64,000 bases of DNA from Oerskovia paurometabola (GTDB taxonomy: Bacteria; Actinomycetota; Actinomycetes; Actinomycetales; Cellulomonadaceae), in assembly GCF_016907365.1 (NCBI RefSeq), contig NZ_JAFBBV010000001.1:1-64000 (forward strand), given 5' to 3'. The notes under the pieces were generated by a model. It ran no database searches. It saw only the letters and a program-made list of their open reading frames with translations, and was not told where the DNA came from. How positions within the stretch are numbered: the stretch's first letter is position 1; each line of letters starts with the position of its first letter. This document shows positions 1 through 19,237 of this stretch, in pieces. The translations under genes were made by a program, and so were the position numbers.

Positions 1-1192
1 GGCGCGGAATCACTTGACCAGTGAGCTATTACGCACTCTTTCAAGGGTGGCTGCTTCTAAGCCAACCTCCTGGTTGTCTGTGCAACTCCACATCCTTTCC
101 CACTTAGCACACGCTTAGGGCCTTAGCTGGTGGTCTGGGCTGTTTCCCTCTCGACTACGGAGCTTATCCCCCGCAGTCTCACTCCCGCGCTCTCACTTAC
201 CGGCATTCGGAGTTTGGCTGACGTCAGTAACCTTGTAGGGCCCATCGGCCATCCAGTAGCTCTACCTCCGGCAAGAAACACGCGAGGCTGCACCTAAATG
301 CATTTCGGGGAGAACCAGCTATCACGAAGTTTGATTGGCCTTTCACCCCTAACCACAGGTCATCCCCCAGGTTTTCAACCCTGGTGGGTTCGGTCCTCCA
401 CGTAGTCTTACCCACGCTTCAACCTGCCCATGGCTAGATCACTTCGCTTCGGGTCTAGGCCCAGCGACTCATTCGCCCTATTCAGACTCGCTTTCGCTAC
501 GGCTTCCCCACACGGGTTAACCTTGCCACTGAGCACTAACTCGCAGGCTCATTCTTCAAAAGGCACGCTGTCACCCCTGCTAGGGAGGCTCCAACGGATT
601 GTAGGCACACGGTTTCAGGTACTATTTCACTCCCCTCCCGGGGTACTTTTCACCTTTCCCTCACGGTACTGGTCCGCTATCGGTCACTAGGTAGTATTTA
701 GGCTTAGCAAGTGGTCTTGCCGGATTCACACGGGATTTCTCGGGCCCCGTGCTACTTGGGATCCCCTTCGGGAGGCCGCGTCATTTCGTCTACGGGGGTC
801 GCACCCTCTGTGCCGGGCCTTTCAATGCCCTTCGACTATAACGCGGCTTTCTGACTCCCTGACCGGGTACCAGCCCGGTCTGAAAGGTCCCACAACCCCG
901 CCCATGCAACGCCTGGTAGCTATCACACATGAACGGTTTGGCCTGTTCCGCTTTCGCTCGCCACTACTCACGGAATATCTCTTCCTGTCGGTACTGAGAT
1001 GTTTCACTTCCCGACGTTCCCTCCACACACCCTATATATTCAGGTGCGGGTCACTGGACATGACTCCAGCGGGGTTTCCCCATTCGGAGATCCTCGGATC
1101 ACGGTTCGTTTGCCAACTCCCCGAGGCTTATCGCAGGCTACAACGTCCTTCATCGGCTCCTAGTGCCAAGGCATCCACCCTGTGCCCTTAAA
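1..1192 (-). rRNA. rrl: 23S ribosomal RNA, 5' part (first copy, cut by the window edge)
   Basis: This is the 5' portion of a 23S rRNA read from right to left; the rest lies beyond the left edge. Its 5' end is placed near the complement of the AGGGCACAGGGTGGATGCC block (about 1171-1190). The sequence matches the other two copies except for one G missing from the run at 118-120. That run reads GGCCCC on the RNA strand in the other copies and in the usual bacterial helix sequence, so the deletion is probably a base-calling error. Confidence 0.97.
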
Positions 1193-1598
1193 AACTTGAC
1201 AACAAAAAATTGCAGAGAACAAAGATAAATCTTTGATCTTACAAAGATGCTCGCGTCCACTGTGCAGTTCTCAAGCTACGGACGATCCCACCCGCTCCCA
1301 CGGCCTACCAACACAACCGGTTGGCGGTTCACCCAGGAGACGCGATGGCCCGTTCAGAGCGACCCCACCCATGCGGGCGGTTCCCTCAGGACCCAACAGT
1401 GTGCTTGGCAAACCCTTCCCCCGTACCCGTGATGTTCCACCACCCACACAAGATGGGCAGGTACTGACACGAACCGTCATGGCCGAGCTCTTCGTTAATG
1501 TTCCACCCTTGAGCAACCATCCACCCACGCGTTCGGCGAGTGCCATGGCCTCTGCACAACCAGCACCACAAGGGCGCCGACTGTGAGTGATGCTCCTT
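1193..1598 (-). other. 16S-23S internal transcribed spacer (first copy), no tRNA
   Basis: About 400 nt between 16S and 23S. I see no tRNA cloverleaf or T-loop motif, as is usual in actinobacteria. A TTGAGAACT box followed by CACAGTGGACGCG (complement of about 1250-1275) is shared with the rRNA leader and, in part, with the 23S-5S spacer. It probably takes part in antitermination or RNase III processing. Confidence 0.85.
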
Positions 1599-3118
1599 AG
1601 AAAGGAGGTGATCCAGCCGCACCTTCCGGTACGGCTACCTTGTTACGACTTAGTCCCAATCGCCAGTCCCACCTTCGACAGCTCCCTCCACAAGGGTTGG
1701 GCCACCGGCTTCGGGTGTTACCGACTTTCGTGACTTGACGGGCGGTGTGTACAAGGCCCGGGAACGTATTCACCGCAGCGTTGCTGATCTGCGATTACTA
1801 GCGACTCCGACTTCATGGGGTCGAGTTGCAGACCCCAATCCGAACTGAGACCGGCTTTTTGGGATTCGCTCCACCTCGCGGTATCGCAGCCCTTTGTACC
1901 GGCCATTGTAGCATGCGTGAAGCCCAAGACATAAGGGGCATGATGATTTGACGTCATCCCCACCTTCCTCCGAGTTGACCCCGGCAGTCTCTTATGAGTC
2001 CCCACCATGACGTGCTGGCAACATAAGACGAGGGTTGCGCTCGTTGCGGGACTTAACCCAACATCTCACGACACGAGCTGACGACAACCATGCACCACCT
2101 GTACACCGACCTTGCGGGGCAACCATCTCTGGAAGTTTCCGGTGTATGTCAAGCCTTGGTAAGGTTCTTCGCGTTGCATCGAATTAATCCGCATGCTCCG
2201 CCGCTTGTGCGGGCCCCCGTCAATTCCTTTGAGTTTTAGCCTTGCGGCCGTACTCCCCAGGCGGGGCACTTAATGCGTTTGCTGCGGCACGGAACTCGTG
2301 GAATGAGCCCCACACCTAGTGCCCAACGTTTACGGCATGGACTACCAGGGTATCTAATCCTGTTCGCTCCCCATGCTTTCGCTCCTCAGCGTCAGTTGCG
2401 GCCCAGTGACCTGCCTTCGCCATCGGTGTTCCTCCTGATATCTGCGCATTCCACCGCTACACCAGGAATTCCAGTCACCCCTACCGCACTCTAGTCTGCC
2501 CGTACCCGATGCAAGCTCAAGGTTGAGCCTTGAGTTTTCACACCAGACGCGACAAACCGCCTACGAGCTCTTTACGCCCAATAATTCCGGACAACGCTTG
2601 CGCCCTACGTATTACCGCGGCTGCTGGCACGTAGTTAGCCGGCGCTTCTTCTGCAGGTACCGTCACTTGCGCTTCTTCCCTGCTGAAAGAGGTTTACAAC
2701 CCGAAGGCCTTCATCCCTCACGCGGCGTCGCTGCATCAGGCTTTCGCCCATTGTGCAATATTCCCCACTGCTGCCTCCCGTAGGGAGTCTGGGCCGTGTC
2801 TCAGTCCCAGTGTGGCCGGTCGCCCTCTCAGGCCGGCTACCCGTCGTCGCCTTGGTAGGCCATTACCCCACCAACAAGCTGATAGGCCGCGAGTCCATCC
2901 CAGACCGATAAATCTTTCCAGACACTCCCCATGCAGGGGCGTCTCGTATCCAGTATTAGACCTCGTTTCCAAGGCTTATCCCGGAGTCTGGGGCAGGTTA
3001 CTCACGTGTTACTCACCCGTTCGCCACTGATCCGCCCAGCAAGCTGGGCATCACCGTTCGACTTGCATGTGTTAAGCACGCCGCCAGCGTTCGTCCTGAG
3101 CCAGGATCAAACTCTCCG
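1599..3118 (-). rRNA. rrs: 16S ribosomal RNA (first copy)
   Basis: The 3' end carries the anti-Shine-Dalgarno block (complement of AAAGGAGGTGATCCA, 1601-1615). The 5' end carries the AGAGTTTGATCCTGG primer site (complement near 3102-3118). The length is about 1,520 nt. One extra G in the run at 2783-2785 falls in the near-universal 338 region (ACTCCTACGGGAGG); the other two copies lack it. A real insertion there is unlikely, so consensus error is the better explanation. The ends are placed by conserved motifs. Confidence 0.97.
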
Positions 3119-17043: not shown

Positions 17044-17449
17044 AACTTGACAACAAAAAATTGCAGAGAACAAAGATAAATCTTTGATCTTACAAAGATG
17101 CTCGCGTCCACTGTGCAGTTCTCAAGCTACGGACGATCCCACCCGCTCCCACGGCCTACCAACACAACCGGTTGGCGGTTCACCCAGGAGACGCGATGGC
17201 CCGTTCAGAGCGACCCCACCCATGCGGGCGGTTCCCTCAGGACCCAACAGTGTGCTTGGCAAACCCTTCCCCCGTACCCGTGATGTTCCACCACCCACAC
17301 AAGATGGGCAGGTACTGACACGAACCGTCATGGCCGAGCTCTTCGTTAATGTTCCACCCTTGAGCAACCATCCACCCACGCGTTCGGCGAGTGCCATGGC
17401 CTCTGCACAACCAGCACCACAAGGGCGCCGACTGTGAGTGATGCTCCTT
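17044..17449 (-). other. 16S-23S internal transcribed spacer (third copy), no tRNA
   Basis: Same as the other two spacers: no tRNA, one TTGAGAACT processing box. Confidence 0.85.
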
Positions 17450-18968
17450 AGAAAGGAGGTGATCCAGCCGCACCTTCCGGTACGGCTACCTTGTTACGAC
17501 TTAGTCCCAATCGCCAGTCCCACCTTCGACAGCTCCCTCCACAAGGGTTGGGCCACCGGCTTCGGGTGTTACCGACTTTCGTGACTTGACGGGCGGTGTG
17601 TACAAGGCCCGGGAACGTATTCACCGCAGCGTTGCTGATCTGCGATTACTAGCGACTCCGACTTCATGGGGTCGAGTTGCAGACCCCAATCCGAACTGAG
17701 ACCGGCTTTTTGGGATTCGCTCCACCTCGCGGTATCGCAGCCCTTTGTACCGGCCATTGTAGCATGCGTGAAGCCCAAGACATAAGGGGCATGATGATTT
17801 GACGTCATCCCCACCTTCCTCCGAGTTGACCCCGGCAGTCTCTTATGAGTCCCCACCATGACGTGCTGGCAACATAAGACGAGGGTTGCGCTCGTTGCGG
17901 GACTTAACCCAACATCTCACGACACGAGCTGACGACAACCATGCACCACCTGTACACCGACCTTGCGGGGCAACCATCTCTGGAAGTTTCCGGTGTATGT
18001 CAAGCCTTGGTAAGGTTCTTCGCGTTGCATCGAATTAATCCGCATGCTCCGCCGCTTGTGCGGGCCCCCGTCAATTCCTTTGAGTTTTAGCCTTGCGGCC
18101 GTACTCCCCAGGCGGGGCACTTAATGCGTTTGCTGCGGCACGGAACTCGTGGAATGAGCCCCACACCTAGTGCCCAACGTTTACGGCATGGACTACCAGG
18201 GTATCTAATCCTGTTCGCTCCCCATGCTTTCGCTCCTCAGCGTCAGTTGCGGCCCAGTGACCTGCCTTCGCCATCGGTGTTCCTCCTGATATCTGCGCAT
18301 TCCACCGCTACACCAGGAATTCCAGTCACCCCTACCGCACTCTAGTCTGCCCGTACCCGATGCAAGCTCAAGGTTGAGCCTTGAGTTTTCACACCAGACG
18401 CGACAAACCGCCTACGAGCTCTTTACGCCCAATAATTCCGGACAACGCTTGCGCCCTACGTATTACCGCGGCTGCTGGCACGTAGTTAGCCGGCGCTTCT
18501 TCTGCAGGTACCGTCACTTGCGCTTCTTCCCTGCTGAAAGAGGTTTACAACCCGAAGGCCTTCATCCCTCACGCGGCGTCGCTGCATCAGGCTTTCGCCC
18601 ATTGTGCAATATTCCCCACTGCTGCCTCCCGTAGGAGTCTGGGCCGTGTCTCAGTCCCAGTGTGGCCGGTCGCCCTCTCAGGCCGGCTACCCGTCGTCGC
18701 CTTGGTAGGCCATTACCCCACCAACAAGCTGATAGGCCGCGAGTCCATCCCAGACCGATAAATCTTTCCAGACACTCCCCATGCAGGGGCGTCTCGTATC
18801 CAGTATTAGACCTCGTTTCCAAGGCTTATCCCGGAGTCTGGGGCAGGTTACTCACGTGTTACTCACCCGTTCGCCACTGATCCGCCCAGCAAGCTGGGCA
18901 TCACCGTTCGACTTGCATGTGTTAAGCACGCCGCCAGCGTTCGTCCTGAGCCAGGATCAAACTCTCCG
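17450..18968 (-). rRNA. rrs: 16S ribosomal RNA (third copy)
   Basis: About 1,519 nt, bounded by the same conserved end motifs as the other copies. I see no difference from the second copy. Confidence 0.97.
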
Positions 18969-19237
18969 TAAATGTTTGCTATCAACCCCGAAGGATTAAC
19001 AACCATACGAAGCGGACCCGAAGGTCCATAATCATGGCTACAAACCGAAAACATGACGTTTTCAATTCATACCAAATAGAAGTCTCAACACGAACACACA
19101 ACACACACCAAACGATGCGCGCCACACGCCCATGCAGGACAATTGGCATTAACTATCAAGCACACTGTTGAGTTCTCAAGCAACCGACACGCACCGACTC
19201 CAACCCACCAGGGGCCTTCACTCGGGGCAACTTCTCT
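18969..19237 (-). promoter_or_regulatory. rRNA leader (third copy)
   Basis: Same as the other leaders up to 19233, where the sequence departs from the shared repeat just downstream of the proximal promoter. Confidence 0.7.

Follow-up and report, generated by a model that had tools for sequence, protein, structure and literature searches.

The 64,000-base stretch analysed here (the window: bases 1-64,000 of the contig of Oerskovia paurometabola, genome G000) begins with a head-to-tail array of ribosomal RNA (rRNA) operons whose repeated unit also carries protein-coding genes. The explanation that we favour, and consider probable, is that an ancestral pair of operons with one spacer between them was expanded by unequal homologous recombination to at least three operons and at least two spacers. 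Judged by sequence comparison, a two-operon tandem in the O. paurometabola lineage appears well supported as real, and three or more operons in the array are likely. The tandem pair is considered real, and older than O. paurometabola, because in a second genome of the genus, G003, the syntenic locus consists of a pair of operons separated by a single spacer.

Repeat structure and contig ends

Bases 1-11308 of the window recur at 7926-19233. Comparison of the window with itself gave identity at offset 7925 for bases 1-120, 2784-8384 and 8386-11308, and at offset 7926 for bases 118-2784. This corresponds to one substitution (8385 versus 16310, within 23S) and two compensating one-base indels, that is, to the three single-base differences that a first-pass annotation, made from the letters of the window, had counted by eye. 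The count was correct, but two of the three are more likely errors of the contig end. The first copy lacks one base near 120 and has an extra base near 2784; both are differences in G-run length that lie less than 2.8 kb from the contig start, and because of this position both indels are probably contig-end errors rather than real variants, so that reading all three differences as true variants is disfavoured. The site of the indel in 16S is one that we take to be universally conserved. A chance repeat is ruled out by near identity over more than 11 kb. The exact repeat stops at 11308/19233, 261 bases upstream of 16S, and weaker similarity extends to 11578/19493.

According to Rfam annotation the minus strand carries two complete rRNA operons and a third that is truncated where the window begins. 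The 16S genes here and the two at the far end of the contig are spaced by 7,925 or 7,926 bases, lie on the same strand and are adjacent, forming a head-to-tail array. Of the three operons described earlier, all are represented by a 16S gene at this spacing, and two are complete in the window. The repeated unit contains five genes (16S, 23S, 5S, a SpoU-type methyltransferase and an ABM monooxygenase) plus a decayed HAD-like gene; Rfam and Pfam annotation thus bears out the earlier description, in which protein genes form part of a head-to-tail rRNA unit. No transfer RNA (tRNA) genes were found in the 64-kb window by ARAGORN. The features of the array, numbered from its right end, are as follows.

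1..1201, minus strand: 23S of the third operon, cut at the contig start (Rfam RF02541); G run of 3 versus 4 near 120
1601..3122, minus strand: 16S of the third operon, with the extra base near 2784 (RF00177, 1589.5 bits versus 1596.5 for the other two window copies)
3384..3663, minus strand: class L upstream region (presumed promoter) of the third operon, identical to 11309-11588, 7925 away, and aligned by BLAST to the contig-end copies with no mismatch
3735..4079, plus strand: ABM domain protein, 114 amino acids (Pfam PF03992, E 9.7e-20)
4142..4643, minus strand: decayed HAD-like gene, two frames with stops (tblastn with the G003 protein)
4722..5540, minus strand: AviRb-type methyltransferase, 272 amino acids (Pfam SpoU_methylase, E 2.2e-34; PDB 1x7o, E 1.5e-115)
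5769..5802, minus strand: stem-loop of 15 bp, likely terminator after 5S (fold -33.7 kcal/mol)
5812..5928, minus strand: 5S of operon 2 (Rfam RF00001)
6020..9127, minus strand: 23S of operon 2 (RF02541), derived base at 8385 (23S nucleotide 743)
9527..11047, minus strand: 16S of operon 2 (RF00177)
11309..11588, minus strand: class L upstream region (presumed promoter) of operon 2, from comparison with G003 opL
11660..12004, plus strand: ABM monooxygenase of the second spacer, 100% identical to the first copy
12067..12568, minus strand: decayed HAD-like gene of the second spacer, placed at the first copy plus 7925, the spacers being identical
12647..13465, minus strand: AviRb-type methyltransferase of the second spacer, 100% identical to the first copy
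13737..13853, minus strand: 5S of operon 1 (RF00001)
13945..17052, minus strand: 23S of operon 1 (RF02541), ancestral base at 16310
17452..18972, minus strand: 16S of operon 1 (RF00177)
19234..19493, minus strand: class R upstream region (presumed promoter) of operon 1, from comparison with G003 opR; the exact repeat stops at 19233

Beyond the right end of the array lie two open reading frames named by eye: 19572-20639 (minus strand), presumably a WYL/HTH-type regulator, and 20724-22699 (plus strand), which we take to be an ABC transporter.

Base 1 of the window is also the first base of a single contig, 4,326,429 bases long. On this contig 16S was matched seven times: within the window three times, near the far end at 4314025 and 4321950, and singly at 2018680 and 3159000. 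BLAST aligned the last 14,006 bases of the contig with the first 14,006, leaving two gaps but not one mismatch, which places both contig ends in one array; at the far end the array sequence starts at about 4310257, after unique sequence. The suggestion that the array continues to the left therefore holds. The gene dnaA is at 173,180, so the contig start was not set at dnaA. The array and the operon at 3159000 lie on the minus strand and the operon at 2018680 lies on the plus strand, all pointing away from dnaA if the terminus is roughly opposite. Beside the operon at 2.018 Mb, the segment at about 2024195-2025440 (L011, about 9196-10441) matches G003 636000-636430 at many offsets, like a tandem repeat.

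The number of operons depends on how the ends overlap. The sequence would give three if they overlap by 14,006 bases, four if they overlap by 6,081, and five if they are separated by a gap of 1,844 bases, or more if the gap holds whole units. With two spacers the expected repeat length is 13,475 bases (19233-5759+1), as against 5,550 for a two-operon locus. Both contig ends stop in the array, although dnaA is at 173,180 and the two other G000 operons (2018680, 3159000) were assembled through. Since a repeat of 5,550 bases was also assembled through in G003, a stop from both sides fits the 13,475-base repeat better; a 13.5-kb repeat of three operons would plausibly stop a long-read assembly.

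Related loci and the origin of the array

Seven genomes of the genus were searched, among which G003 is the only other one assembled as a single contig. Of its four 16S genes, those at 2662066 and 2670447 enclose a methyltransferase gene (84% identical). The order at this locus is flank R, operon (opR), methyltransferase-HAD-ABM, operon (opL), flank L, syntenic with G000. Between the two genomes the right flank is 92% identical over 9.7 kb and 85% identical over a further 350 bases, and the left flank is 90.5% identical over 2.8 kb and 91% over 4.7 kb, about 1.2 kb of the latter being operon (BLAST). The 2 kb of the left flank adjoining the operon are 86% identical. The G003 spacer consists of the methyltransferase, an open HAD-like frame and an ABM protein (69% identical). 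Taken most simply, these sequences suggest that a two-operon tandem with protein genes between the operons predates the split of the G000 and G003 species.

The regions upstream of the operons fall into two classes. That of operon 1 is identical to the region upstream of G003 opR at 247 of 280 positions. Those of operon 2 and of both contig-end operons are mutually identical (280/280) and match G003 opL at 261 of 280 positions; the region of the third window operon is identical to that of operon 2. Between class L and class R 167 of 302 positions are identical. The leader is the same in all G000 operons compared (261/261), and the operons are nearly identical throughout. The single-nucleotide polymorphism (SNP) at 8385 (23S nucleotide 743) follows the same division: the derived base is present in operon 2, both contig-end operons and the third window operon, and the other base in operon 1, both dispersed G000 operons, all four G003 operons and all five draft operon contigs.

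This distribution would fit a single unequal exchange, and recombination, proposed in the first-pass annotation as a way to change copy number, is a plausible mechanism. The exchange would take place between operon bodies that are nearly identical over about 5.5 kb, when operon L of one sister chromosome pairs with operon R of the other. The product would have one R upstream region, adjoining the right flank, and every other operon would receive the L upstream region. A mutation of opL would be passed to the middle operon by a crossover located downstream of that mutation. Exchange in the opposite sense would lead to loss of units; starting from the two-operon state, it would take away the whole spacer, the methyltransferase gene included. 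As amplification requires, direct repeats of about 5.5 kb bound the spacer, and the junctions (upstream classes, SNP) are those predicted for unequal exchange.

A promoter role of the L and R upstream regions is presumed. A consensus scan of 3000-6100 gave one promoter-like site, at 3329-3302 in the leader common to all operons (mean in shuffles 0.3), and no promoter match in the class-specific region 3384..3663. The same scan gave one terminator-like site, below the 1.6 expected by chance.

In each of the five draft genomes of the genus, both flank contigs end in operon sequence and one contig of 5.4-5.5 kb represents the operon; orthologs of the methyltransferase and ABM genes were found in none of the five. 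On a small tree of flank pieces G000 and G003 group with the drafts G005 and G006 and are not exclusive sisters; because of this grouping, the apparent absence of the spacer from the drafts would reflect either several losses or assembly drop-outs. In the draft G001 (contig 55, L112, about 2232-3769) about 1.5 kb without a match in the G000 stretches compared lie between flank L and the operon. Outside the genus, 16 family genomes out of 221 were chosen for having 1 to 9 contigs. None of the 16 has two closely placed 16S genes; four show a single 16S, so collapse is possible in this set. In this sample, tandem operons are not supported as a trait of the family.

Several observations weigh against a true expansion. 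Identical copies, a contig that ends in the array and the observed distribution of upstream regions and SNP would also be expected if two operons had been falsely expanded. Since the G000 operons are nearly identical throughout, gene conversion could have spread the SNP at 8385. The draft operon contigs are collapsed and may conceal a minority base. The spacer occurs in both single-contig genomes of the genus and in none of the five drafts, a pattern that may reflect the type of assembly. The contig ends cannot be joined in phase (1,844 bases are missing if there is no overlap), which means that the assembly is unfinished at the array, and the copy number is taken entirely from assembled sequence.

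The false expansion in assembly that the first-pass annotation gave as the alternative is in our estimate unlikely. On that view the chromosome would have the same two operons and single spacer as G003, and the extra units would have been added by the assembler where the contig starts and stops. The concern is justified insofar as the contig starts and ends in the array, is not closed and allows three, four or at least five operons; also, the homopolymer indels in the first 2.8 kb suggest a poor consensus, the spacer copies are letter-identical, and the pattern of upstream regions and SNP would look alike under both explanations. Yet the tandem pair itself was assembled at the same locus in G003, and two operons would give no true read of the type spacer-operon-spacer, whereas the contig shows this order at both ends. 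Moreover, repeats of about 5.5 kb did not stop the assembly at two other G000 loci or at the corresponding locus of G003. A longer or variable array of at least four operons, with cells perhaps differing in copy number and contig ends that do not fully overlap, is conceivable, though we lean against it; being a case within the proposed expansion, it shares part of its odds. The overlap could be 6,081 bases (four operons), or none with the 1,844-base gap (five), instead of 14,006, and a mixed population was inferred for the tandem rRNA repeat of Streptococcus iniae (PMC9176272). On the other hand, three operons with an untrimmed overlap of 14,006 bases need the fewest copies and no gap.

The first-pass annotation suggested that the structure could tune the rRNA dose; we find it rather improbable that the array is a selected device doing so near the origin. 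With dnaA taken as the origin marker, the array (1-19,233) is near it and is transcribed away from it, but close pairs of 16S genes are absent from the 16 other family genomes, and an expansion may be neutral and transient. Expansion of an ancestral pair by unequal exchange remains the reading that we prefer.

Genes of the spacer

The spacer between operons, of about 2.1 to 2.4 kb, holds the methyltransferase, the decayed HAD-like gene and the ABM monooxygenase. The four assembled G000 spacers are identical (no differences in 2105 bases), the decayed HAD gene included. Identity between the G000 and G003 spacers is about 76% (window 3717-5602), as against 86-92% for most of the flanks; the spacer either evolves faster than the flanks or has a different history. 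Identity within G000 together with about 76% between the species indicates that the G000 copies arose recently, have been homogenised or are artefacts.

The methyltransferase matches PDB 1x7o over residues 3-270 of 272 (E 1.5e-115, 388 bits), whereas the next solved relative scores 115 bits. It has the Pfam domains PF00588 (SpoU) and PF22655 (an L30e-like N-domain), and by its sequence belongs to the AviRb type. Identification as RlmB (TIGR00186) was rejected, the score being 105.5 bits against a cut-off of 160.15. Other G000 matches to this protein are at most 38% identical. It is likely to be an AviRb-type 23S rRNA 2'-O-ribose methyltransferase, an activity predicted from homology. The gene is intact, and the ratio of nonsynonymous to synonymous substitution rates (dN/dS) between G000 and G003 is 0.16; for ABM it is 0.415. 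From these values both genes look maintained.

Relatives of the methyltransferase (E of at most 1e-45) are present in 59 of the 221 family genomes, G000 and G003 counted. Outside the genus, no rRNA, ABM or HAD gene was found near such relatives at any of 71 loci at the thresholds used. Of these loci, 43 were viewed up to 10 kb on each side (some cut by contig ends, and one with only a 32% relative); the other 28, drawn from part of the 59 genomes, were viewed 1.5 kb on each side, some genomes being in both sets. Because the relatives are frequent in the family and lie away from rRNA genes, a housekeeping or intrinsic role would seem as likely as acquired resistance.

The name HAD for the decayed gene is our own presumptive reading of its sequence. 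The G003 protein matches it at 47% and 56% in two frames (tblastn), and the G003 version is open (171 codons). Since the gene is decayed in all four assembled G000 spacers and open in G003, there are three possibilities: the decay came before the last duplication, conversion distributed it, or the copies are artefacts. The 15-bp hairpin at 5769-5802 probably ends rRNA transcription before the methyltransferase gene, as its predicted fold suggests; it was not flagged by the consensus terminator scan, which requires a T run.

Comparison with known systems

The G000 array belongs with the known unstable tandem rRNA repeats, which are hard to assemble and whose instability bears on short-term selection of rRNA copy number. 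Its two-operon sister in G003 and the upstream classes, which possibly record an exchange, would allow gains and losses of units to be traced. An active AviRb-type enzyme would mean a genetic link between the dose of rRNA and its modification. It is a speculation, to which we give very little weight, that the unit couples an rRNA operon with its modifier so that each exchange shifts both and the final contraction removes the methyltransferase, heritably switching cells of one strain, or species of the genus, between modified and unmodified ribosomes.

In Streptococcus iniae a tandem rRNA repeat of about 7 kb was omitted from one assembly and was dominant on resequencing of the same strain, so that both genotypes are on record for one strain; a mixture in the stock culture was inferred (PMC9176272). 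As in S. iniae rRNA1, a complete operon lies in a head-to-tail unit in G000, and there too the repeat was ambiguous in long-read assembly (PMC9176272). The S. iniae repeat includes nine tRNA genes, whereas the G000 unit has protein genes, is in tandem in the sister species and is known from assembly (PMC9176272). Tandems of two and three operons in Bacillus subtilis trouble assemblers and are prone to deletion (PMC8156514); the available text on them does not mention protein genes between the operons, which the G000 unit has (PMC8156514). In Vibrio alginolyticus three regions with tandem rRNA operons were inferred, with a connecting contig of about 200 bases, while the G000 spacer exceeds 2 kb and contains protein genes (PMC10956519). 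Direct duplications through exchange between rrn operons were described in Salmonella (Anderson and Roth 1981; Reams 2014, cited in PMC9176272). The G000 array resembles them in that unequal recombination between rRNA operons yields direct duplications; the Salmonella events involve large segments between distant operons, whereas the G000 unit measures 7.9 kb and its operons lie side by side (via PMC9176272).

The unusual part of the G000 array is the AviRb-type methyltransferase in the unit, along with the protein-gene spacer and the visible two-operon sister. Among the matches listed in a search of the open-access literature, none described a tandem rRNA unit that contains a gene for an rRNA methyltransferase. 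AviRb is a ribose methyltransferase acting on 23S U2479, and it confers protection on an avilamycin producer (PMC9508554, PMC12772374); PDB 1x7p, the partner entry of 1x7o, is listed as AviRb (PMC9508554). The AviRb gene is located in the avilamycin biosynthetic cluster (PMC12772374), whereas its G000 relative, known by sequence, lies between rRNA operons.

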